This document shows, piece after piece, positions 2 through 11,803 of a DNA stretch of 64,000 nt (the stretch's first letter is position 1; every line of letters begins with the position of its first letter). The notes under the pieces are model-generated. The model made no database searches and had not been told where the DNA came from. It was given only the letters and a program-made list of their open reading frames with translations. The translations under genes and the position numbers were made by a program. Source of the stretch: Fimbriimonadaceae bacterium (GTDB lineage: Bacteria > Armatimonadota > Fimbriimonadia > Fimbriimonadales > Fimbriimonadaceae); the NCBI GenBank assembly GCA_019638795.1, contig JAHBTB010000011.1, positions 1-64,000 of the forward strand, given 5' to 3'.

Positions 2-808
2 GTCCAAGCCGGCATCCTGATGGCCGCGGCGCTGTCGCCGCTGTATTGGAACTTGTTCGCCAAGATGCCCGAGCTCTGGTTCGACGCCGAGAGCTACTAT
101 CAGCACGGACCCCTCGTCCCGTTTGCGGCGGGCTACATCATTTACAAGAAGTGGCCCAAGATCATCCAGACCGACGCCAAACCAACTTGGTTTCCGTTGC
201 TGCTGATGATCCCGCTGCTTCTGCTTGTGGTCGTCGCGGCGCGGACGAACATGATCGGCGTCGCGTCGGGGACGTTAATCCTCGTCCTCTTGCTGACTAG
301 TTGGTGCCTGTTCGGCTTTCGGTGGGCTTTGAAGATGGCTCCCGGGCCGCTCTTCCTGGCGTTTGCATTTCCTTTCTGGAATGGGTTGATCGACAAATAC
401 ACCCTGAACCTTCAGATTTTTTCAACCTCAGGCTCCTACTATATGCTGAAGTTGTTGGGCATGCAGCCTTTCCGGCAGGGGCCGACGGTCATCCAACTGC
501 CAAAGTTTTCCCTCAATATTGCGGCTGAGTGTTCGGGCATGAAGATGACGCTCGCGATGATCGCGTGTGTCACATTTATCGCCCTCGTCTCCAACATCAA
601 GTGGTGGGGCAAGATCTTGCTCGCCGTCATCGCCATTCCCCTGTCCCTCGCGATGAACTCCTTGCGCATCGGACTGATCGGCGTTTTCGGTAATGAAATG
701 GGTCATGACGCCGGAATGTGGATGCATGACTACGGTAGCTACGGTGTCTTGGCCTTGAGCTTCTACATTCTCTACAAAGTCGCCCAGAAACTGGGGTGGG
801 ACGCGTGA
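2..808 (+). CDS. xrt: exosortase (5' partial)
   Basis: Polytopic membrane cysteine transpeptidase-like enzyme that processes C-terminally tagged exported proteins, usually beside exopolysaccharide genes. Numbered from the ATG at 20, the three family residues are visible: Cys171 in AAECSGMKM, Arg216 in MNSLRIGLIG and His236 in MHDYGSYG, among about seven hydrophobic segments. The frame is open upstream to the window edge (codons from position 2), so the true start is probably outside. The stop overlaps the next gene (GTGA at 805), which encodes the usual EpsI partner. No protein in this window shows a PEP-CTERM-like tail, so its substrate lies elsewhere. Confidence 0.9.
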   Translation, partial: VQAGILMAAALSPLYWNLFAKMPELWFDAESYYQHGPLVPFAAGYIIYKKWPKIIQTDAKPTWFPLLLMIPLLLLVVVAARTNMIGVASGTLILVLLLTSWCLFGFRWALKMAPGPLFLAFAFPFWNGLIDKYTLNLQIFSTSGSYYMLKLLGMQPFRQGPTVIQLPKFSLNIAAECSGMKMTLAMIACVTFIALVSNIKWWGKILLAVIAIPLSLAMNSLRIGLIGVFGNEMGHDAGMWMHDYGSYGVLALSFYILYKVAQKLGWDA

Positions 809-1458
809 AAACAATCTACTGGTCTTTGGTCGTCATGTTCTTGGCTTGTGGCCTGTATCGTATCTTCGGGCTCCAGATCCAGAACTTCAAGATGAAGGAC
901 GAAGCATGGCTATTGTCCATTGTTCCGTCGCAGGTCGAGGACTACAACGTGGTTCCGAGTGAGTTCAGTCCCAAGGCCAGCTACCGGATGGACGCAAAGA
1001 CGTACACCGCATTGAAACCGATCGGTATCGCCGGGCAGACGTACCGTGGGCCTAGGGGGACTATGGACGCCGTTGTCATTGCTGGGGACCGGATGGAAAG
1101 CTTCCATGATCAGCGATGGTGCTTTGCTGGTCAAGGTTGGGAGGTCACGGATGAGAAGAAACAAACACTTGATGTCCCAGGCTATGGCAAGGTGCCGATG
1201 TGGACCATGAAACTCCGTCGAGGCAACGAAGAACCCCGTTTGGCGGCGTTCACCTTCAAGACCCCGGTCGGATTCCGTACTGAGTATCAAAAGGGACAGA
1301 TCGACTACTTGGTCAGTGAGTTCAAGACAGGACACCCCAACGTGGGCTTCTCATTCCGTTTCATCGAAATGGACACGAGTATGTCGGAGAAGGACTTCTA
1401 CGACTTCGTCAAGGCCTACTTCGTGACTTCGAAGCAGACTAGCAAGAACGTCCTTTGA
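805..1458 (+). CDS. epsI: exosortase-associated EpsI family protein
   Basis: About 217 residues: one N-terminal membrane segment (roughly residues 4-22) followed by a periplasmic domain. The motif DQRWCFAGQGWEV matches the EpsI (DUF3485) hallmark, a Cys followed by a G-x-GW turn. EpsI proteins accompany exosortases in exopolysaccharide loci, but their biochemical role is not settled. I chose the GTG at 805 because it forms a GTGA overlap with the exosortase stop; an in-frame GTG at 796 is possible. The pair is therefore translationally coupled. Function is inferred from family and context. Confidence 0.82.
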   Translation: MKTIYWSLVVMFLACGLYRIFGLQIQNFKMKDEAWLLSIVPSQVEDYNVVPSEFSPKASYRMDAKTYTALKPIGIAGQTYRGPRGTMDAVVIAGDRMESFHDQRWCFAGQGWEVTDEKKQTLDVPGYGKVPMWTMKLRRGNEEPRLAAFTFKTPVGFRTEYQKGQIDYLVSEFKTGHPNVGFSFRFIEMDTSMSEKDFYDFVKAYFVTSKQTSKNVL

Positions 1459-1480: not shown

Positions 1481-2641
1481 ATGAGGATCAGTCACATATC
1501 TCTGGGGCGGTTCCATCATTTCTCGTTGTGTCGTCTCCTGCACGAACGGGGGTTGCTAGAAACGTTCTTTGTCGCCTACCCCCAATGGAAGGTCAGGCCA
1601 GACAATCTCCCGATGGACAAGGTCCGTACGTTCCCCTGGATATGGGGCCTCTACCATTTGAGGCTTGGCAAAGAGGATCGCATCACCAAAGACCTTGCTC
1701 TATATGCTAGGAAATCATTGTCGAGATTCGCGGCAACCCGTCTCGGGAATACGACTGCCCTGGTAGCTATGTCGGCGAGCGGCCTGGAGGCAGGTCGTGA
1801 AATGAAGCGGCTCGGGGGAACCTGGTTTTGTGACCGAGGCTCGGCCCACATTCAATATCAGGACCAGTTGCTGAGAGAAGAGCATGCGAAGTGGTCGGTG
1901 CCCTATGAGCACATCGATCCTCGGGTGATTGAACGGGAGTTGGCCGAGTATGAAGAGGCCGACGCAGTATTGGTGCCCTCAGAATTTGCCCGAAGGTCGT
2001 TTATCCAGCAGGGGGTCCATGCGAACAAAGTCATCAAGATTCCGTACGGGGTAGATCTGCGAGACTTCTACCCCGGCGGAGGGCGTCCTGACGGTGTGTT
2101 TAGGATCCTCTTCGTCGGTGGCGTGACGCTCCAAAAGGGAATCCCTTACCTGCTTCAGGCAGTTGGCCGCCTTCATGGCGACGTCGAGCTGGTCATTGTT
2201 GGGGACGACAGCCTGATGCCGGCGGGTGTCCTCGGCCAATTTGACACTGCCAAGGTTCGTTGGCTGGGCAAACAGCCTCGGTCCGAAGTTCGGACGTGGA
2301 TGCAGCAGTCGCACGTCCTGGTTTTGCCAAGTGTCCAGGACGGCTTTGGTCTCGTGATGGCGGAGGCAATGGCATGTGGTTGCACGGTGGTCGCCTCGCA
2401 CAACACGGGCATCCACGACATAGTCGACGATGGTGTTGAAGGGTTTTCGGTACCCGTCGGAGATGCGGTTGCTCTGGCAGAGAGAATACAGTCATTGGTG
2501 GACGATCCGGCTATGACGCGACGTATGAGTGAGGCGGCCATCGCGAGGGTATCGCGGCTTGGCGGATGGAACACCTACGCAGACGGACTGATCTCTGCGC
2601 TGACGGAGGTAGGCGGACTTCACAAGACTCTCGTAAAGTAG
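1481..2641 (+). CDS. glycosyltransferase family 4
   Basis: A 386-residue GT-B fold retaining glycosyltransferase. The C-terminal nucleotide-sugar domain starts near residue 205 (FRILFVGGVTLQKGIPYLL). It carries the GT4 signature PSVQDGFGLVMAEAMACG, in which the first Glu of the E-x7-E motif is replaced by Asp (D-x7-E), a tolerated variant. The N-terminal acceptor domain begins MRISHISLGRFHHF. It lies 22 nt after epsI on the same strand and probably adds a sugar to the repeat unit of the local exopolysaccharide. Donor and acceptor cannot be read from sequence. Confidence 0.88.
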   Translation: MRISHISLGRFHHFSLCRLLHERGLLETFFVAYPQWKVRPDNLPMDKVRTFPWIWGLYHLRLGKEDRITKDLALYARKSLSRFAATRLGNTTALVAMSASGLEAGREMKRLGGTWFCDRGSAHIQYQDQLLREEHAKWSVPYEHIDPRVIERELAEYEEADAVLVPSEFARRSFIQQGVHANKVIKIPYGVDLRDFYPGGGRPDGVFRILFVGGVTLQKGIPYLLQAVGRLHGDVELVIVGDDSLMPAGVLGQFDTAKVRWLGKQPRSEVRTWMQQSHVLVLPSVQDGFGLVMAEAMACGCTVVASHNTGIHDIVDDGVEGFSVPVGDAVALAERIQSLVDDPAMTRRMSEAAIARVSRLGGWNTYADGLISALTEVGGLHKTLVK

Positions 2642-2763: not shown

Positions 2764-5043
2764 ATGAAAGGTTTGAATGCATCTGTGTTCCGTGTCGGAC
2801 TGACTGCCCTCAGCATGAGCGTGTGCTGCTTTGCCTCTGCCCAGCTGAACCTGTATGTTTCGACCCAAGGTAAAGACACATGGTCGGGGATGCTCAGTGC
2901 ACCGAACTCAGCAGGGACGGACGGCCCCAAAAGGACTCTCGCCGGTGGGCGTGACGCTCTGCGGAAGATCCGAGCGGGCCAGACACCCGGTGGCGTGGTC
3001 AGTGCGGCAGAAGTCTCCGCCGCCAAGCGGACCTTTCTTGGTCGTGGAGCAACCGTGAACGTGGCGAGCGGCGTCTATGACGCCAAGAACCCCATCGTGT
3101 TCGACTCCCGGGACAGTGTCCCCTCGCGGCGCGTGACGATCACGTACAAGGCGACGACCAACCGGGCCGCGGTCCTTGACGCAGGCTATTCGGTGACCAA
3201 CCTGGCCCGACCGAGTGCTGCATTTTGGACTACCGAAACCCGAGTCGACCCAAGTTTTCGGTCGCAGGTCTATGTCGCCGATATTTCCGGGGCGGGGGAC
3301 ATGGGACGGCTGACCTTCCGTATGCCGGGTTGGAACGCGATGTGGTCGGACGTGTCCTTCCGGTTGATCCCCAACTACAACCAGTCTGCGGAGCTGGTCA
3401 TTGACAACGAAGCCATGCATCTGGCCCAATGGCCCAATGAGGGTGTCGTCGATATGAACGGGATGAACGGTGAGCCACGGTTCCACAATGGCCACGCCTT
3501 CATCACGCGACCCGGGCCGTCGAACAACTACTCGGACTCCAACTCCTCCAATTGGATCTATGAGTTCGAGGCCGACTTTCGGGGGCTCAAGACACCTGAG
3601 ACGATTGACGCCAATTCCGACATTTGGGTCCGTGGGTGTATGAACGCCTCCAAGTTTAAGGAGTACTGGGAGCATGTGACCAAACTAGACTTCTCCGGCG
3701 GCCAGTCCGCCGGGCTGTTGCGGTTCGATCCTGTTGCCACATTCTATCAGACAAATGCCGGACGGCAGGTCTCAGGGAACGGTGAACCTGGACGATATAC
3801 CATTGTCAACTCCCTCTATGAACTCGACGCTCCTGGTGAGTACTACATCGACCGTCTGAACAAACGGCTCCTCGTCATTCCGCCCGCAACCTTTGTTCCG
3901 GGTGTCTCGTCAGTCAAGCTGACAATGAACCAGCAGCCCATTATCCAGGCTAATGGCCTGCGTGGAGTCACATTTGACGGTCTCGTCTTGCAAAACGGAC
4001 GCTTTATGGGTGCGTACTTCAAGGACTGCTACAACGTGACCTTCAAGAACGGTACCGTCCAAAATGTCGGTCACAACGGCGTCACGATTGATAATAGCTA
4101 TCGGACCAACGTTCAGAGCAACGTCATCACCGACACCGGTCAGGGTGGCATCGACGTCCAGTCCGGGGACCGCGCGACATTGACCCCAAGTGGCAACGTG
4201 CTTGCAGACAATGTGATCAAGCGCTGGGGCCGCACGATGCGATTCTACACTGGCGCTGTCCGCCTAGACGGATGTGGTAACTCCATGCTCAACAATACGG
4301 TGGCCGACGGCATGGGCGAGGCGGTCGTTCTCCATGGTAACGAGCAGATCATCAGTGGTAACCACTTCTCACATACCACCTATGATGCTGGTGACTCTGG
4401 CGTCATTGTGAACGGACATGATGTGTCGGATCACGGCAACGTGATCAGCAACAACTACTTCGAGGAGATCCGATCCCTGCCCTATAGCACCTGGCCGGTG
4501 ACCGCACTCTTTGTCGATGGCGCCGGCGGCGGTACAACATTTGACAACAACGTTGTCGTCGGGGCCGACAAGGCGGTGAACATCCTCGCCACCTGTGATA
4601 TCAACGTTCGCAATAATGTGTTCATGAACGTGAGTGGCTACGCCGTCCGTGCGAGCAGTTCCCCCTTTGCCCCAAATGGAAACTATGTGACCCGAGCGAA
4701 CCAGATGCCGTGGCGCGGCAGCCTGTGGTCAAAGAAGTATCCGAACCTGGCCGACTGGTTGTCGACCCTGACTCCTGCGCCACGTCACTACAATATCTCG
4801 AACAACATCTACGTCAATTGCGGAGTCGGCCTTGCGGACAAGGTGAGCTGGGGCAAGGTGTTTGCTGTTGGAGGCGTAAACCACTACAATGTAGACCAAT
4901 CAGTCTCACCATTCGTTGACGCTCCCGGTGGCAACTTCACCCTGAGATCCGACAAAGTCGGTTTGGTTCCTGGTTGGACGCCACTGAACACCGACACAAT
5001 GGGTTCTAGGACGATCCCGGACGGAACAGGCTCGGAGTTCTAG
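2764..5043 (+). CDS. secreted right-handed beta-helix protein
   Basis: A 759-residue exported protein. Residues 1-27 form a signal peptide ending near FASAQ. The mature N-terminus begins LYVSTQGKDTWSGML, the typical opening of pectate-lyase-like parallel beta-helix proteins. From about residue 400 to 630 there are repeating coils rich in Asn/Val/Ile (NVTFKNGTVQNVGHNGVTI, NVITDTGQGGIDVQ, NNTVADGMGEAVVLHGNE) that stack into a solenoid. Such proteins include polysaccharide lyases and epimerases, but I see no decisive catalytic signature. Its place among exopolysaccharide genes suggests a periplasmic or surface polysaccharide-modifying enzyme. Confidence 0.8.
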   Translation: MKGLNASVFRVGLTALSMSVCCFASAQLNLYVSTQGKDTWSGMLSAPNSAGTDGPKRTLAGGRDALRKIRAGQTPGGVVSAAEVSAAKRTFLGRGATVNVASGVYDAKNPIVFDSRDSVPSRRVTITYKATTNRAAVLDAGYSVTNLARPSAAFWTTETRVDPSFRSQVYVADISGAGDMGRLTFRMPGWNAMWSDVSFRLIPNYNQSAELVIDNEAMHLAQWPNEGVVDMNGMNGEPRFHNGHAFITRPGPSNNYSDSNSSNWIYEFEADFRGLKTPETIDANSDIWVRGCMNASKFKEYWEHVTKLDFSGGQSAGLLRFDPVATFYQTNAGRQVSGNGEPGRYTIVNSLYELDAPGEYYIDRLNKRLLVIPPATFVPGVSSVKLTMNQQPIIQANGLRGVTFDGLVLQNGRFMGAYFKDCYNVTFKNGTVQNVGHNGVTIDNSYRTNVQSNVITDTGQGGIDVQSGDRATLTPSGNVLADNVIKRWGRTMRFYTGAVRLDGCGNSMLNNTVADGMGEAVVLHGNEQIISGNHFSHTTYDAGDSGVIVNGHDVSDHGNVISNNYFEEIRSLPYSTWPVTALFVDGAGGGTTFDNNVVVGADKAVNILATCDINVRNNVFMNVSGYAVRASSSPFAPNGNYVTRANQMPWRGSLWSKKYPNLADWLSTLTPAPRHYNISNNIYVNCGVGLADKVSWGKVFAVGGVNHYNVDQSVSPFVDAPGGNFTLRSDKVGLVPGWTPLNTDTMGSRTIPDGTGSEF

Positions 5044-5055
5044 CCGAAGTCGGCA

Positions 5056-5110
5056 CCAGAATTGACTATGGTCAGGCCGAAGTTATCGGCTTGACCATAG
5101 TCAATTCTGG
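5056..5110. terminator. long perfect hairpin between convergent genes
   Basis: A 19-bp perfect inverted repeat (5056-5074 with 5092-5110) continues inward, after one G-T pair, into GCCGA/TCGGC, giving about 25 paired positions around a 5-nt AGTTA loop. It sits between convergent genes. Its inner part contains the stop codon and last codons of the minus-strand polymerase gene. There is no clear T-run, so it is either a bidirectional terminator/mRNA 3' stabiliser or a relic element. Confidence 0.6.
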
Positions 5111-6643
5111 GTTCCTCCGTTTCACCAAGGCATTGGACATCCAAAGGAGGGTGACAAACGCAATGCAAACCAATGGGGCGAAGCCAAGGATTTGGCTCGT
5201 GATTGTTGCAATAGATCCCTCAGTAAAGGTCATCGTGGCCTGGAACATGATGCCTAGGGCAGCAGCATTGAACATAAGAGTATGGCCAAAGATGGTCCGA
5301 TAGACCGAAATCATGACAAGTGCAAGAATCATTGACACAAAGAAGATGCCTGACCATCCATAGGAGATCAGTGCGTCAGCAGTGAATCCCATCGAGATCT
5401 GCGTCCCATAGTCGCCGTAATTGACCAAACCCGTTCCCTTATGGGCAAGAAAGTTGGTGGTGCTGACGAGCGGCTTGTCTCGGTTAAAGATGCTGGGTGT
5501 GGCCAGCCGGAATCCCCAGATCGTAGTCTCGGCACCGAGAGGCTCCTTATCAAGATTCGAAGCGATGAGTGAGTCGATAACTGGGAGTAGAGTCAACCGG
5601 TCAAGCGTCCGGTTGTCTGGAAGGCCACGATAATAATAAAGCCTACGAGTGCTGTAAAGTCTCTTGGCCGCTTCACGATCCTTCTTCGAGACGTACAGCG
5701 ACTTGTCTGTCATGAACCTACCCAGTAAGGACATGGCCTTGGGAAGCCGTTCTTCTAGTCGGCCTTCACGGAATTCAGACCGTCCGTACAGGGCAAATGG
5801 AGAGAACGTCGTTTGGTAGAAAACTAACAGTACAGCGAACACCAAGACCTCGCCTAGTCGGAATTTATGCCGGAACAAGAGCGCGGTGAGACCAATGATG
5901 AGGACGGGGCCAATAAAGTTCTGGCGTGAAGCATTGACCGTGGCAAAGAGAAACTCAAGAACGAGGGCGGCGACGAGGAGCGGGCTAAAGATGCGCTTCT
6001 TGTCTAAGATAGATGCCGCGGCGAGGAGGCTCATGCCGATTAGGGCGGCATTTGACACTGTGCGCGCGAACCCGTAGGTGCCACCAGATTGGAAGTAGCG
6101 GGTAACGGGCATGGCGAGAAGAAAAACGATTGCTACGGTTGAAGCGCTGAGCGTCAGTAGGCCGATCATCCTCAAGCGCTTGGAGTCTAGGCGTGGTGGC
6201 AAGATTGACCGCCATGACTCATACTTGAAGAATCTGAGTAGAACCGCGGCGGCCATAAAGCCTGCCATACCGATCACGCAGGCCAGCATTGTGGGGACCG
6301 GGGCGAGCAGATCCTTGTCCGGTGCTTCCATGATCACCGTCTTGATGACCTGGCCAAGGCCAACATGAATGGTGGCGCAGACTGAAATGATGAAGCCGCC
6401 GATGCTAAACGGCCCGCCCAACAGGTGAATCGTGGTCCAAGCAAAGGCACCATAGAGCATCACCAAGAACGCAAAGGTCACATCGGTGCCGATGGCAAGT
6501 TGCGCGAGGAAGAAGACAACGAAAAACGTTGCCGCCAACACATGCCTGACTGGAAGCCGTCGGCGGGCTGGCGTGAGGTCGGTCAACTGTGTCGCTGCTG
6601 CCATGCTCTTGTGGTTCATTATGGCTGAGAACGGGCTGGTCAT
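5072..6643 (-). CDS. O-antigen/EPS repeat-unit polymerase-like membrane protein
   Basis: About 523 residues with some ten to twelve hydrophobic segments (for example VRHVLAATFFVVFFLAQLAI and IGLLTLSASTVAIVFLLAM) and a large hydrophilic loop around residues 310-430, as in Wzy-type polymerases. An upstream in-frame extension exists, but I place the start at the ATG at 6643, where it forms an ATGA overlap with the flippase stop. Wzy sequences diverge so far that the call rests on topology and on coupling to Wzx. It would join lipid-linked repeat units on the periplasmic face. The last codons lie inside a long hairpin. Confidence 0.68.
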   Translation of the reverse strand: MTSPFSAIMNHKSMAAATQLTDLTPARRRLPVRHVLAATFFVVFFLAQLAIGTDVTFAFLVMLYGAFAWTTIHLLGGPFSIGGFIISVCATIHVGLGQVIKTVIMEAPDKDLLAPVPTMLACVIGMAGFMAAAVLLRFFKYESWRSILPPRLDSKRLRMIGLLTLSASTVAIVFLLAMPVTRYFQSGGTYGFARTVSNAALIGMSLLAAASILDKKRIFSPLLVAALVLEFLFATVNASRQNFIGPVLIIGLTALLFRHKFRLGEVLVFAVLLVFYQTTFSPFALYGRSEFREGRLEERLPKAMSLLGRFMTDKSLYVSKKDREAAKRLYSTRRLYYYRGLPDNRTLDRLTLLPVIDSLIASNLDKEPLGAETTIWGFRLATPSIFNRDKPLVSTTNFLAHKGTGLVNYGDYGTQISMGFTADALISYGWSGIFFVSMILALVMISVYRTIFGHTLMFNAAALGIMFQATMTFTEGSIATITSQILGFAPLVCIAFVTLLWMSNALVKRRNPELTMVKPITSA

Positions 6644-8046
6644 CCCTTGGGATCGCGGGTGAGCCAGGCTTTCAACCTGTCGGGGGGCCGCGTCACCTGC
6701 AGCAGAAATGCTGAGGGCTTCATCTCGAGCAAGTGACAGCCGGTGGGCACAATGACTGTGATCATCGCGACCTCGGCCGCCGCCATAAGCGTTGCGGCGC
6801 CCTCTATTCCAAACCTCTGGGCCACAAAGAACGTGGCCACGCAACACCCAAACATCGTGAGGACGTAGGCTGTGCTGGCTTTGGCCGTACGGTTGATCGA
6901 CAGCAGTCCGGCGGCAAGCGGTGACCAAATCGAGTTGAACACGGCGGCAAGAAGCATCGCGGTCAAGCTCCAGAGGTCGATCGTCTTCGTCTTTGTCCAG
7001 AAGTGATAGAAGGGCGGTCCGACCACCATCATCAGGGGCAAGAAACAGACTGCGATCCAAAAGGCCCTTTGCGTGGTGCTCAGGATCAAGGCACGGGCCC
7101 TGGTTATCTCACCGGCCCCGTACATCCGTGAAAACTCAACCGCGGTGGAGAATCCCAGTCCGCCAACGACCTGGTTGGACACCCGGGCCAACTTGCGCGA
7201 ACTGGCCAACACGCCGCCGGTCGCCGCCCCGGTCGCCAGGGCCAGTGCCTGCGCAAATCCTTCGACACTGAGGATCGAGGCACCGGAGTACACGGTGATA
7301 AAGAATGCGGGCCGCATCATTTTGACCGCGATATCACGGTCGAAGTGCTTGTAGCCTGGCCGCAACCACGTGTTGATGCGCCACATGTCCCAAGTGCTGA
7401 CGCTGTACACGAGGAGTCGTGAGGCGAGGACCGCGATGGCCAGCCAAACCATGTGCGGAGGCAAGCTGACGCCGATCAGCAACACGATGGTTTCCAGGGC
7501 CCGCTGGATACTTTGGGTGTACTGATACCGGGAAAAGTGGTGCTCGGTCTGATACCCGGCGAGAATGAAAGTCCCTTGCTGACTCAGCAGGGCGTTGAGG
7601 CCGAAGACCGCGATCACGATTTGCGCCTCCCACCGGGGCGTTGCAGTCAGCTTGAGGATTCTTTCGGCGTCAAAAAACGGCAAGACGACCAGCATGAGTA
7701 GGGCTATCGCCACCGTGATGACGGTGACGGTGAGCCACGTGGACTGGTAGATCGCCTTGGCCCTGGCCTTGTCGCCTCGACCCATGAGCTGGGTGATCTC
7801 GCTGACGGTCGCTGTCCCGAAGCCCATGTCGCCCAGGGTGAGGTAGGCGGGGACGCTGATTATGATCGACCAGTCGAAGTAGACGTCCGCGCCCCACTTC
7901 CGGCTAGCGACAAATTGGAGCAGGAAAGCCGACACAAATGCCACGGCTTGATTGACCAGCGTCGCGGCAAAACTCCGGTTCAGGCGCTTCCTGACGAGCT
8001 CGTCGTCCTGGGGCGTCTGGATCGGGTCGGGGGTCATTCCTGTCAA
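6640..8046 (-). CDS. polysaccharide flippase (Wzx/MOP family)
   Basis: A 468-residue polytopic protein with about 12-14 membrane segments, starting with a cytoplasmic N-terminus and FAATLVNQAVAFVSAFLLQF. The pattern fits polysaccharide transporters of the MOP superfamily that flip undecaprenyl-linked repeat units across the inner membrane. The start at 8046 is preceded by AGGA; a second ATG lies three codons later. It is divergent from the Wzz-like gene across a 109-nt spacer and overlaps the polymerase by ATGA. Wzx, Wzy and Wzz together define a Wzy-dependent export route. Confidence 0.8.
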   Translation of the reverse strand: MTGMTPDPIQTPQDDELVRKRLNRSFAATLVNQAVAFVSAFLLQFVASRKWGADVYFDWSIIISVPAYLTLGDMGFGTATVSEITQLMGRGDKARAKAIYQSTWLTVTVITVAIALLMLVVLPFFDAERILKLTATPRWEAQIVIAVFGLNALLSQQGTFILAGYQTEHHFSRYQYTQSIQRALETIVLLIGVSLPPHMVWLAIAVLASRLLVYSVSTWDMWRINTWLRPGYKHFDRDIAVKMMRPAFFITVYSGASILSVEGFAQALALATGAATGGVLASSRKLARVSNQVVGGLGFSTAVEFSRMYGAGEITRARALILSTTQRAFWIAVCFLPLMMVVGPPFYHFWTKTKTIDLWSLTAMLLAAVFNSIWSPLAAGLLSINRTAKASTAYVLTMFGCCVATFFVAQRFGIEGAATLMAAAEVAMITVIVPTGCHLLEMKPSAFLLQVTRPPDRLKAWLTRDPKG

Positions 8047-8155
8047 TTGTGTCGGTATGTAGGTTCGGTTTATGCACCTGTGCTAGGGTCGAGCGAATCC
8101 CGATTATGGTATATTGGTGGACGCCTGCCGGTACGTCCGCGCGAGAGGTTCAAAC

Positions 8156-10228
8156 GTGAGCGAGTCAAAAGAACGGATTCTTACTCCCAGCATGGCCGAC
8201 CTGAGCTACAAGGAAGTCATTGGCGTCATCGGTCGGCGGAAGTGGATTGTCCTAGGCAGCATCGTCGCCGGCGTCGCGGTCGCTGCTGCAGTTTGCCAGT
8301 TTCTCATTAAGCCCGTTTGGGTGGCATCGGCACAATTGCTCGTTCCCGGACGAACGATCGCAGGTGGGGGCGTAGGCACCGGCCTGATCGACCAACTCGC
8401 CGAGAACCCGATCAACAACTACGACGTCCTCACCCAGATCCAGTTGTTGCAGTCTCAAGAAGTCATTTTCCGGGTCTACAACGAAGCCGGCGTCCAGATT
8501 CCTCGGACGTTCCGCGAAGCGGAGGACGCCCCGAAGATCGACGTCTTCCAACAGGGTGACACCCAGGTGCTCATCGGCCGGGTTTCGGCCCCGACGGAGT
8601 CGATCGCGACGAAGATGGCCCAGGCCCTGCCTATCGTCTATCAGCAGTACATCCAGACGAAGGCCGAAGAAGTTGTCAATGGGTCCATCAGCTTTTTGAA
8701 CACCCGAATGGAAGAAGAGAAGAAACTTCTCGAGGCCGCCCGGACCGACTTGGCCGAATACCAGCGTCAAAACAACGTCTCTGTTTCCGCAGTTGAAGTC
8801 CAGTCCACCTCTACTCTGATCCAAAACGGCCAGGCCGAAGTACGAGCTGCCGAAGCTGGAGTCCAGGGGGCTGAGTCGGCCCTGGCAAAGACACGCGAGG
8901 AGCGGGCCGCAATTCCTGCGACCGTGACCCTGCCCGTGACCCGGTCGAACGTCGCCCTGATCGACCAGGAGAAGCGGAACCTTCAGACCTTGCAGACTCA
9001 GTTGGACGGCTTGCTCGCCCAGTACCTGCCCGAACACCCGCTGGTCAGGGCGGCCAAGGCGCAAGTCGACGGCCAGAAGGCGTATCTTGCCTCCATTCCA
9101 CTCGAGGTCAAGGAACAGCAGGTCGTGCGCAACCCGCAGATCGACGCTTACGATCTTCGAGTCGCCCAAGCCGAAACCGACCTTGCCGCGGCAAGGTCCA
9201 GGCTCAGCACGCTCCAGGCCAAGCAGCGGGAGATCGAGGCGAGGAAAGGCACCGAGGCCGACACGGTCAAGGGCCTGACCGATAAAGAGCGGACGGTCGC
9301 CAACCACGAGACTTCCATCCAGCAGTTGAAGTCGACGCTGGACGCCCTGATGCTCAAGAAGAACAACCTTCAAGCACCCCAACAGCTCAACCGGTCGACC
9401 CTGGCCGAGCAGACCCAGCCCAACTGGCCCGTCTATCTCGGCGCCGGTGCGGTGGTCGGCCTGTTCCTCGGCGTCCTGGGTGCCATGGTCCGTGACTTCA
9501 ACCAAGACAAGGTCATGGGCGGCTCGATGGCGTCGACCATCGCGGACAGTTACGTCCTCGCCAGGGTCCCGCGACGCTTGGCCAGCGCCAAGCCGATCAT
9601 GACCACCGCCGGTGAAGCTCTCAGCTTTGAGTCGTACCGGATTTTGCGGACAAACCTGGTTTCTGGAGAAGGTGGCAAGGGCCTCAAATCGGTCGTCGTC
9701 ACTTCGACCAGCGCGGGCGAAGGCGCGTCGACGGTCGCCGGCAACCTCGCGGTCGCCTTGGCCCAGGAAGGCAAGAAGACGGTCCTGCTCGACGCCAACA
9801 TGCGTAACCCGGTGCAAGACCGATTGTTTGACGTCGCGCCGAACGGCGGTCTGAACCAGGCCCTGTCCCAAGGCACCGACGCGGCCAGCTTGACCATCGA
9901 CACGTCGGTGCCGAACCTGAAGGTTCTCGTCGCCGGTGGCAAGTCCGCCAACGCGACCGAAGCCTTGGCCAGCCCAGCGATGGACGCGGTGCTCACCAGC
10001 CTCAAGGGCTCGTTCGACTACATCGTCGTCGACGCGCCGGCCGCGTTCACCACTGCCGACGCCCACGAGGTCGGCCGCAAGGTCGACGGAGTGCTCTATG
10101 TGGTCGAGTCGGGCAAGCCTTCGCGCTCGCAGTTGGCCGAGAGCATCGCCATGCTCCGCCATGCGGGTGGCAAACTCCTTGGCCTAGTCATGAACAAGGA
10201 CAAAGGCGCCGCCGACCGCCTCTCGTGA
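8156..10228 (+). CDS. Wzz chain-length regulator fused to degenerate BY-kinase domain
   Basis: About 690 residues: Wzz domain with a first membrane segment (WIVLGSIVAGVAVAAAVCQF), a long periplasmic coiled-coil region, a second membrane segment (VYLGAGAVVGLFLGVLGAMV), then a P-loop domain of the bacterial tyrosine kinase type. Such fusions set polysaccharide chain length. The kinase looks inactive: the Walker A Lys is Ala524 (SAGEGAST), Walker A' reads LLDANM (Asp546, Asn548), and there is no C-terminal tyrosine cluster. Walker B Asp626 (YIVVDAP) remains. I chose the GTG at 8156 because GAGAGG (8142-8147) lies 8 nt upstream; the frame is open further up to an ATG at 8114. Confidence 0.85.
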   Translation: MSESKERILTPSMADLSYKEVIGVIGRRKWIVLGSIVAGVAVAAAVCQFLIKPVWVASAQLLVPGRTIAGGGVGTGLIDQLAENPINNYDVLTQIQLLQSQEVIFRVYNEAGVQIPRTFREAEDAPKIDVFQQGDTQVLIGRVSAPTESIATKMAQALPIVYQQYIQTKAEEVVNGSISFLNTRMEEEKKLLEAARTDLAEYQRQNNVSVSAVEVQSTSTLIQNGQAEVRAAEAGVQGAESALAKTREERAAIPATVTLPVTRSNVALIDQEKRNLQTLQTQLDGLLAQYLPEHPLVRAAKAQVDGQKAYLASIPLEVKEQQVVRNPQIDAYDLRVAQAETDLAAARSRLSTLQAKQREIEARKGTEADTVKGLTDKERTVANHETSIQQLKSTLDALMLKKNNLQAPQQLNRSTLAEQTQPNWPVYLGAGAVVGLFLGVLGAMVRDFNQDKVMGGSMASTIADSYVLARVPRRLASAKPIMTTAGEALSFESYRILRTNLVSGEGGKGLKSVVVTSTSAGEGASTVAGNLAVALAQEGKKTVLLDANMRNPVQDRLFDVAPNGGLNQALSQGTDAASLTIDTSVPNLKVLVAGGKSANATEALASPAMDAVLTSLKGSFDYIVVDAPAAFTTADAHEVGRKVDGVLYVVESGKPSRSQLAESIAMLRHAGGKLLGLVMNKDKGAADRLS

Positions 10229-10776
10229 CCGGCGACGTCGGATACGAAACGACCGCCTCAGGACTGATCGTCCTGAGGCGTCTTTCTGTCACCCCAGGCC
10301 CCCGACGGACCGTCTTCTTCGACCGCGACGGCGTGCTCAACGTCGACCGGGGTTACGTGGGGTCCCGTGAGGACTTCGAGTGGAGGCGGGGTGCCGTCGA
10401 GGCGGTGGAGTTGGCCCACGGGCTGGGCTTTTGGACTGTCGTGGTGACCAACCAGTCCGGGATCGGTCGGGGTTACTTTTCCTCCGGGCAAGTGGTCGAA
10501 CTGCTCCGTTGGATCATGGAGGTCGTGCCGCTGGACCTGGTCCTGGCCTGCCCGCACGGGCCCGACGACGGATGCCCCTGCCGAAAGCCCAAGCCGTTCA
10601 TGCTCGAACATGCCGACCAGCTCCTTGGTGTGGTCAAGTCAGGTTCGTTCCTTGTCGGCGACATGGACCGCGACGTGGCGGCGGGGCGGGCCTTCGGTGT
10701 CCCGGGCTACTTGGTCGACGACTCACCGCTGGACACCTTTATCGCCCCGCTCCTCAGCTCTGCAGGAACCTCTTGA
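10225..10776 (+). CDS. gmhB: D-glycero-D-manno-heptose-bisphosphate phosphatase-like HAD protein
   Basis: A 183-residue HAD-superfamily phosphatase. The nucleophile motif FFDRDGVLN (Asp33, Asp35), VVVTNQSGIGRGYF, the zinc-site cysteines CPHGPDDGCPCRKPKP and the late acidic motif VGDMDRD match GmhB/histidinol-phosphatase enzymes closely. GmhB removes the 7-phosphate from heptose bisphosphate on the way to ADP- or GDP-heptose. The GTG at 10225 overlaps the previous stop (GTGA); no ATG or GTG follows before the conserved core. A terminator-like hairpin lies inside the first codons. The 3' end overlaps the convergent manC-like gene by 23 nt. Confidence 0.82.
   Translation: MTGDVGYETTASGLIVLRRLSVTPGPRRTVFFDRDGVLNVDRGYVGSREDFEWRRGAVEAVELAHGLGFWTVVVTNQSGIGRGYFSSGQVVELLRWIMEVVPLDLVLACPHGPDDGCPCRKPKPFMLEHADQLLGVVKSGSFLVGDMDRDVAAGRAFGVPGYLVDDSPLDTFIAPLLSSAGTS
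10254..10287 (+). terminator. terminator-like hairpin inside the gmhB 5' end
   Basis: CGCCTCAGGA (10254-10263) pairs perfectly with TCCTGAGGCG (10271-10280) around a 7-nt loop and is followed by TCTTTCT. It lies 26 nt after the Wzz-fusion stop, so it resembles an intrinsic terminator of that gene. It also falls within codons 10-19 of the overlapping gmhB frame. Confidence 0.6.
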
Positions 10777-11803
10777 CTTCTTGCGCCCGGTGCTTCGGCA
10801 ACACTAAGACACGGCCCTCGGTCACGACGACGACCAAGTCTTCGACCCCCAGCAATGACACGGTCTGGTCTGTGCCGTGGACGTAGACCGTGTTGCCGTT
10901 GGCCTCGATCATGTGCGCCTGGCCTTGGACGACGTTCCCCGCGTCATCGGCCTCGTAGGACCGGGCCAGGGCGTCCCAAGCCCCCAAGTCGTCCCATTCA
11001 AACTCGGCCGGCACCACGAAGACTGGGTCCGCCCGCTCCATCACGGCGTAGTCGATCGAGAGGTTGGGCAGGCTGGCGAACACTTCGTCGGCCCGCTCCT
11101 GCTCCCCCGTCCTGATCAGTTCGGCCAGGGTGCGGGTCGTCGTGGCGACGTCCGGCGCCTGGCGGTCTAGCTCGCGCATGAATGTGGCCAGGGTGTAGAA
11201 AAACATCCCCGAGTTCCACAGGAACGTCCCGGCCGCGAGGAACTCCTCTGCCGTGGCCAAGTCGGGTTTTTCGCGGAACCGGACCACCCGGAGGGCGCTT
11301 CCCGACGGCTCGCCGGACTCGACGTACCCAAACCCCGTTTCGGGTCTGGTCGGGCGCACTCCGATGACGGCGATGCCGCCATGGGCCTCGGCTGCCTCCA
11401 TCGCTTTGGTGACGGTGGACTGGAACCCGGACATCGGGTGGATCCTTTGGTCAGCCGTCAAGACCGCGACCGTCGTCTCGGACCAACCTCCTGGTTCGGC
11501 CGCCATGAGACTGGCGGCGACCCAAACAAGGCATCCCAAGGTGTTTCGTTTGCACGGCTCGGCCAGGATGTTCTCCGCTGGAAGTCCGGGGACGGCTGAC
11601 AATGACCCTTCCACCAAGTGGCGACCCGTCGCAATATAGGTGGCGTCCAGGCCGGCAACGGCCGCCCCCCGCTCGACCGCTTCCGCAATCAATGGCTTCT
11701 CGGGGGAGGCCAAGTGCAAGAACTGCTTGGGTCTCTCCTTGGTCGAGACCGGCCAGAACCGCTCTCCAGAGCCACCCGCCATGATCACCGCGACGCGCTT
11801 CAT
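10754..11803 (-). CDS. manC: mannose-1-phosphate guanylyltransferase
   Basis: A 349-residue nucleotidyltransferase making GDP-mannose from GTP and mannose-1-phosphate. The N-terminus VIMAGGSGERFWPVSTKERP is the diagnostic GMP motif (GGxGxRxWPxS). Also visible are PKQFLHL, the metal/sugar region FGYVESGEP, and FLWNSGMFFYT. It is a single-domain form without the isomerase domain of bifunctional ManC. It starts at 11803 in an ATGA overlap with the upstream lipoprotein gene. Its product is the substrate for Gmd and Fcl at 24.9-26.9 kb, so the two sugar loci are linked metabolically. Confidence 0.92.
   Translation of the reverse strand: MKRVAVIMAGGSGERFWPVSTKERPKQFLHLASPEKPLIAEAVERGAAVAGLDATYIATGRHLVEGSLSAVPGLPAENILAEPCKRNTLGCLVWVAASLMAAEPGGWSETTVAVLTADQRIHPMSGFQSTVTKAMEAAEAHGGIAVIGVRPTRPETGFGYVESGEPSGSALRVVRFREKPDLATAEEFLAAGTFLWNSGMFFYTLATFMRELDRQAPDVATTTRTLAELIRTGEQERADEVFASLPNLSIDYAVMERADPVFVVPAEFEWDDLGAWDALARSYEADDAGNVVQGQAHMIEANGNTVYVHGTDQTVSLLGVEDLVVVVTEGRVLVLPKHRAQEVKRFLQS

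Follow-up and report, generated by a model that had tools for sequence, protein, structure and literature searches.

The co-polymerase Wzc of Escherichia coli, a PCP-2a tyrosine autokinase, requires in its canonical form phosphorylation cycling. Mutation of the P-loop lysine abolishes the phosphorylation of Wzc, with the K540M variant being a homogeneous octamer (PMC8285477), and Wzc K540M derivatives have been solved with MgADP (PMC11986026). In Staphylococcus aureus, CapA1B2 with the K55M substitution has been crystallised as an octamer with ADP-Mg, and the EX2RX2R motif and the tyrosine cluster contribute roughly equal halves of the interface in the CapB2 octamer (PMC3795738). BY pseudokinases have been described as well: the stand-alone EcpK of Myxococcus is essential for EPS synthesis (PMC12004946), and Cuthbertson et al., cited in the same paper, have pointed out fused PCP-2/BY pseudokinases, namely SMc01795, Mlr8439, VV1_2305 and BCETI_6000729. 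EcpK raises the question of PCP-2 co-polymerase function without phosphorylation cycling.

The window, i.e. the entire stretch of 64,000 nucleotides from a Fimbriimonadaceae bacterium analysed here, encodes a 690-aa protein in which a polysaccharide co-polymerase (Wzz) is joined to a bacterial tyrosine kinase (BYK) domain. Most probably, this protein is the PCP-2a (Wzc-type) co-polymerase of a polysaccharide locus linked to an exosortase, and its cytoplasmic BY-kinase domain is catalytically dead and kept as a structural part. As in EcpK/EpsV of Myxococcus xanthus and HfsB/HfsA of Caulobacter, a BYK fold is found with a PCP-2 protein without catalytic residues and tyrosine tail, and a phosphorylation-independent scaffold is proposed in each case. 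However, the pseudokinases EcpK and HfsB are separate proteins while the one in the window is fused, and while all Walker motifs are gone from EcpK, the window protein keeps Walker B and lacks in Walker A essentially only the lysine. The proteins listed by Cuthbertson et al. likewise unite a Wzz part and a pseudokinase in one polypeptide; they are from other phyla and are likened to the window protein by description, not by sequence. The window protein adds to these already noted fusions a representative from a phylum not named in PMC12004946.

The fusion protein and its active site

The gene and its predicted membrane topology comprise the following features.

8143–8148, plus strand: ribosome-binding site GAGAGG, 7 nt upstream of the coding sequence
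8156–10228, plus strand: PCP-2a-type Wzz co-polymerase fused to a putative BY pseudokinase domain, 690 aa (coding sequence, profile matches)
8240–8302, plus strand: predicted first transmembrane helix, residues about 29–49 (AlphaFold2 helix 29–49)
8312–9424, plus strand: periplasmic region with long helices, about residues 53–423 (AlphaFold2 helices 148–206, 211–251 and 328–402)
9425–9493, plus strand: predicted second transmembrane helix, residues about 424–446 (AlphaFold2 helix 424–451)

The reading frame has a GTG start, at the position where the same-genus orthologue also begins, and no internal stops. The matches to Wzz (PF02706, residues 19–109, 35.6 bits versus a cut-off of 25.5) and to the BY-kinase profile TIGR01007 (145 bits versus a curated cut-off of 108) both exceed their thresholds, and the Wzz domain, the two predicted transmembrane helices flanking the periplasmic region and the fused BYK-fold domain make up a PCP-2a architecture. 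The motifs of the cytoplasmic domain are as follows.

9629–9649, plus strand: EX2RX2R oligomerisation motif E492-SY-R495-IL-R498, intact (alignments)
9707–9733, plus strand: degenerate Walker A, TSAGEGAST, with GCG (Ala524) replacing lysine at 9725–9727 (sequence, alignments)
9791–9802, plus strand: Walker A', D546-A-N548-M, second Asp changed to Asn (AAC) (alignments)
10019–10039, plus strand: Walker B, YIVVDAP, Asp626 retained (alignments)
10202–10225, plus strand: C-terminus KGAADRLS without tyrosine cluster, predicted as a short helix, not a flexible tail (sequence, AlphaFold2)

The P-loop reads TSAGEGASTVAGN with alanine as residue 524, and the Walker A' context is LLDANMR, where D546 and N548 align to D77 and D79 of CapB2 and to D562 and D564 of Wzc (ungapped offset from the P-loop lysine). 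Of the features of an active BY-kinase, the P-loop lysine, the Walker A' DxD and the C-terminal tyrosine cluster are absent, while the TIGR01007 score and the Walker B aspartate D626 are present. The Wzz-kinase fusion with lysine replaced by alanine, asparagine for the second Walker A' aspartate, an intact Walker B and no terminal tyrosine cluster, as read in the earlier note, is in all these points borne out. By the definition used for EcpK, a BYK fold from which catalytic residues and tyrosine tail are gone, the domain would be a BY pseudokinase, though Walker B is kept.

With Wzc, the window protein shares architecture, fold and EX2RX2R motif, and Wzc Lys540 and Asp564 correspond to its Ala524 and Asn548; it differs in having neither a tyrosine tail nor an adjacent wzb or wza. 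The solved structure closest by fold and sequence is CapA1-CapB2 K55M (2ved), in which the same lysine is missing and which is still an ADP-bound octamer. However, CapB2 K55M is an engineered mutant and CapB1 is inactive as a kinase despite its intact active site, and both possess the tyrosine cluster that the window protein lacks. At the EX2RX2R columns, canonical kinases have E492 in 37/37, R495 in 34/37 and R498 in 36/37 cases. Of the octamer interface, the EX2RX2R half is present in the window protein and the tyrosine-cluster half absent.

Loss of the P-loop lysine in the nearest orthologues

At the position of the P-loop lysine, the orthologue of the same genus (G044, MAG SZAS-4, 61% identity) has serine (TCC) and the one of the next genus (G054, Prado032, 42–43% identity) valine (GTC). 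In G044 the first Walker A' aspartate is also changed, to glutamate. Named relatives, matched in an alignment scan of genome contigs after a scan with a single sequence had found nothing, place the window in Fimbriimonadaceae within the Armatimonadota. Lysine occupies position 524 in every lysine-retaining relative within the subclade (22/22) and in every canonical BY-kinase sampled from the phylum (37/37). As presence of the lysine was in part a criterion for choosing the canonical set, the independent count is 22/22. No other column is invariant in both sets yet altered in all three genomes of the window clade (A/S/V). As GCG, TCC and GTC each lie two or three substitutions away from AAA/AAG and come from three independent genomes with differing non-lysine codons, an error in reading or assembly is ruled out, and so is a lesion confined to one strain. 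The alignment of orthologues, suggested in the earlier note as a check for clade-wide loss, hence finds the lysine gone throughout the window clade, and the refuting condition set in the note, that lysine-retaining orthologues would point to a lesion of the strain, does not hold in that form, as distant orthologues keep the lysine and both nearer ones have lost it. Asn548, on the other hand, is not peculiar to the window protein; asparagine is the rule in the group, lysine-retaining orthologues included.

A kinase that is still active, with another residue standing in for the lysine at 524 and with phosphorylation of an external substrate in place of its own tail, would be compatible with the intact Walker B and with the ability of CapB2 without its tyrosine cluster to phosphorylate CapO. 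The alignment shows no compensating P-loop lysine common to the three lysine-less genomes, though, mutation of the same lysine abolishes Wzc phosphorylation and the Walker A' aspartate is lost too, which makes residual activity highly improbable.

Order of the losses

Homologues were gathered from the family, the order and the phylum, and trees were built without the motif and tail columns, the most careful one with 57 rows under LG+C20 PMSF. In this tree, the window protein and its orthologues from G044 and G054 form one clade (support 100/100), nested within a 37-row tyrosine-less Fimbriimonadaceae clade (100/100) that is itself embedded in the phylum's canonical Wzc-like kinases (GEGKS, DxDLRRP, tyrosine tail). 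Across the tyrosine-less clade the tail has been lost once (one change) and the lysine at least five times; the Walker A' Asp/Asn state requires at least three changes on the tree. Walker A' asparagine is general in the 25-row subclade of the window (one His, one Asp), also in lysine-keeping proteins, and the Asn548 column is Asn in 20/22 sisters.

The most economical order deduced from these sequences is loss of the tyrosine tail, then of the Walker A' aspartate and then of the lysine. The lysine was lost last, as most other orthologues retain it while tyrosine tail and second aspartate are already absent, and as the asparagine is general in the clade, catalysis had probably ceased by the time the lysine disappeared. 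That the lysine was free to go after the loss of the tyrosines is read from the order on the tree and not from an independent-pairs test of the two losses, which with five pairs is underpowered (median p 1). A search of the order (113 genomes) with the canonical kinase domain of L103 (G007) gave proteins of more than 300 bits in only three genomes and at most 146 for everything else.

Maintenance of the domain and nucleotide binding

Purifying selection maintains the dead domain. Identity to the orthologues is higher in the BYK domain than in the periplasmic part (70% versus 54% for G044, 53% versus 38% for G054), and the NG86 estimate of dN/dS for the domain is about 0.17 (0.216/1.277, with dS near saturation). 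Within residues 447–690, 44 of the 60 positions strongly conserved in lysine-retaining sisters are unchanged in all three lysine-less genomes, among the unchanged elements being EX2RX2R, T516, E522, G523, R550, D626, D635 and N680, and none of the lysine-less orthologues examined is truncated. These data weigh against a decaying relic, in which the kinase domain is functionless and heading for loss and only the Wzz part matters; that several lineages lose active-site residues and a paralogous clade is without the whole P-loop would fit with such decay, which nevertheless appears improbable.

The AlphaFold2 model of residues 447–690 is of high confidence (pLDDT 87.4, pTM 0.88), with CapAB K55M (2ved) as its best PDB match (TM 0.86–0.88) and CapAB and Wzc also among the best. 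For the full-length protein, local confidence is good (pLDDT 82.4) but pTM is low (0.42), so that the arrangement of the domains is not readable from it. With lysine, second Walker A' aspartate and tyrosine tail gone, the lysine loss fixed in the clade, and purifying selection, fold and EX2RX2R kept, the assignment as a pseudokinase in the earlier note is supported.

As a structural part, the domain would form or guide the ring on the cytoplasmic side of the co-polymerase oligomer via protein contacts alone, so that tyrosine phosphorylation would no longer drive assembly and disassembly, nor, through these, the length and export of the polymer. A dead kinase is predicted to be still able to oligomerise, because Wzc K540M and CapB2 K55M form octamers, but ring formation cannot be assumed, as the tyrosine-cluster half of the CapB2 interface is absent here. 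Against the structural reading also stands the need of canonical Wzc for phosphorylation cycling. From EcpK we infer that the pseudokinase may be required for polysaccharide synthesis.

With respect to the nucleotide, the earlier note had suggested chain-length regulation through nucleotide-independent oligomerisation. Regulation through oligomerisation is plausible by analogy; the nucleotide independence, however, is not supported, as CapB2 K55M and Wzc K540M, missing the same lysine, are ADP-Mg-bound octamers. Nucleotide binding is therefore not predicted to vanish with the lysine, and a nucleotide may still bind to the domain as a structural ligand. In a nucleotide-gated variant, ATP/ADP-Mg would be bound without the lysine and binding rather than phosphotransfer would switch the ring; lysine-retaining DxN orthologues would then represent an ATP-bound, non-hydrolysing state. 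Besides the ADP-Mg bound by the two mutants, the conservation of the pocket outside positions 524 and 548 (the seven residues from T516 to N680 listed above, in all three genomes) and the holding of position 548 as asparagine, without drift, argue for such a switch, but the change of the first Walker A' aspartate to glutamate in the same-genus orthologue suggests a relaxing pocket and the residue in place of the lysine varies freely; overall, we regard gating in the window protein as unlikely. A further reading, speculative and of low probability, is that Fimbriimonadaceae swapped the phosphorylation cycle for a nucleotide-binding switch when tyrosine tail and Walker A' aspartate were lost and that some lineages, including the one of the window, then dropped the switch, which would leave, mostly at one orthologous locus, natural proteins graded from an active kinase down to a pure scaffold.

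Locus and genome context

The gene is surrounded by the following genes.

20–808, plus strand: exosortase (profile, synteny)
796–1458, plus strand: EpsI-like protein (profile, synteny)
1481–2641, plus strand: GT4 glycosyltransferase (profile, synteny)
5072–6640, minus strand: no family match, a candidate for the Wzy polymerase or a ligase (position only)
6640–8046, minus strand: probable Wzx, flippase-like (MatE match weak and below cut-off; syntenic, 56% identity in L109, the G044 locus)
10225–10776, plus strand: HAD-IIIA phosphatase (GmhB/histidinol-phosphatase-like), overlapping the stop of the co-polymerase gene, conserved neighbour (profiles, synteny)
10754–11803, minus strand: ManC-like mannose-1-phosphate guanylyltransferase, conserved neighbour (profile, synteny)

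The order co-polymerase, HAD phosphatase, ManC is common to the tyrosine-less relatives examined, usually with GlnE and Lpt genes beyond, so that the tyrosine-less co-polymerases occupy one orthologous locus; the canonical kinase of L103 (G007) is located elsewhere. The HAD gene, which adjoins the co-polymerase gene across the relatives examined, possibly encodes a dedicated sugar-phosphate phosphatase. Beside the exosortase genes, a 759-aa right-handed beta-helix protein is encoded (2764–5043, plus strand); as its homologues lie next to the co-polymerase gene, in opposite orientation, in several relatives, it may belong to the polysaccharide system, for example as a lyase or epimerase.

No second active BY-kinase that might act in trans was found in the 99% complete genome of the window (G000), which favours a fused pseudokinase scaffold. 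The only other TIGR01007 match was considered for such a role and rejected, as it is Mrp/ApbC-like and its P-loop, GKGGVGKST, is normal. The structural reading is weakened by a weakly supported Wzx, a Wzy proposed by position only and the location of the three Poly_export (Wza) genes found in the genome, all on contigs other than that of the window. One of these (C10:15647–15868) lies about 16 kb from the gene of a second Wzz-like protein (L003/L101, C10:32188–33069; open frame of about 489 aa), which matches the Wzz part only; the remaining two lie on C5 and C15. The genome also has one gene for an LMW tyrosine phosphatase, on another contig, but this family is general and of little informative value.

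Other lineages

The Fimbriimonadaceae locus offers graded intermediates, i.e. tyrosine-less DxN proteins with and without the lysine, with canonical relatives elsewhere in the phylum. The roles of tail, aspartate and lysine in ring assembly are thereby separable using natural proteins instead of engineered mutants, and the special value of the group lies in this graded orthologous series combined with repeated loss of the lysine.

Altered P-loops are also seen in other Wzz-BYK fusions. A separate Fimbriimonadaceae clade (L045–L072 except L054; G027, G075, G076, G040, G069 and others) has a lost or scrambled P-loop (e.g. VGEDVDST, IKTAMTTYS), the last arginine of EX2RX2R is gone and the Walker B aspartate is missing in several members. 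In families f2–f5 of the order (L073–L092), every sampled fusion has arginine for the P-loop lysine (e.g. EPNVGRST), with DxD kept, few tail tyrosines and no EX2RX2R. Distant in the phylum, L149, L150 and L154 (G169, G191, G198) show the P-loop GQGGT, with glycine for lysine and DxD kept; the protein of G191 has a tyrosine-rich tail despite GQGGT, and the three are possible independent pseudokinases still carrying the tail.
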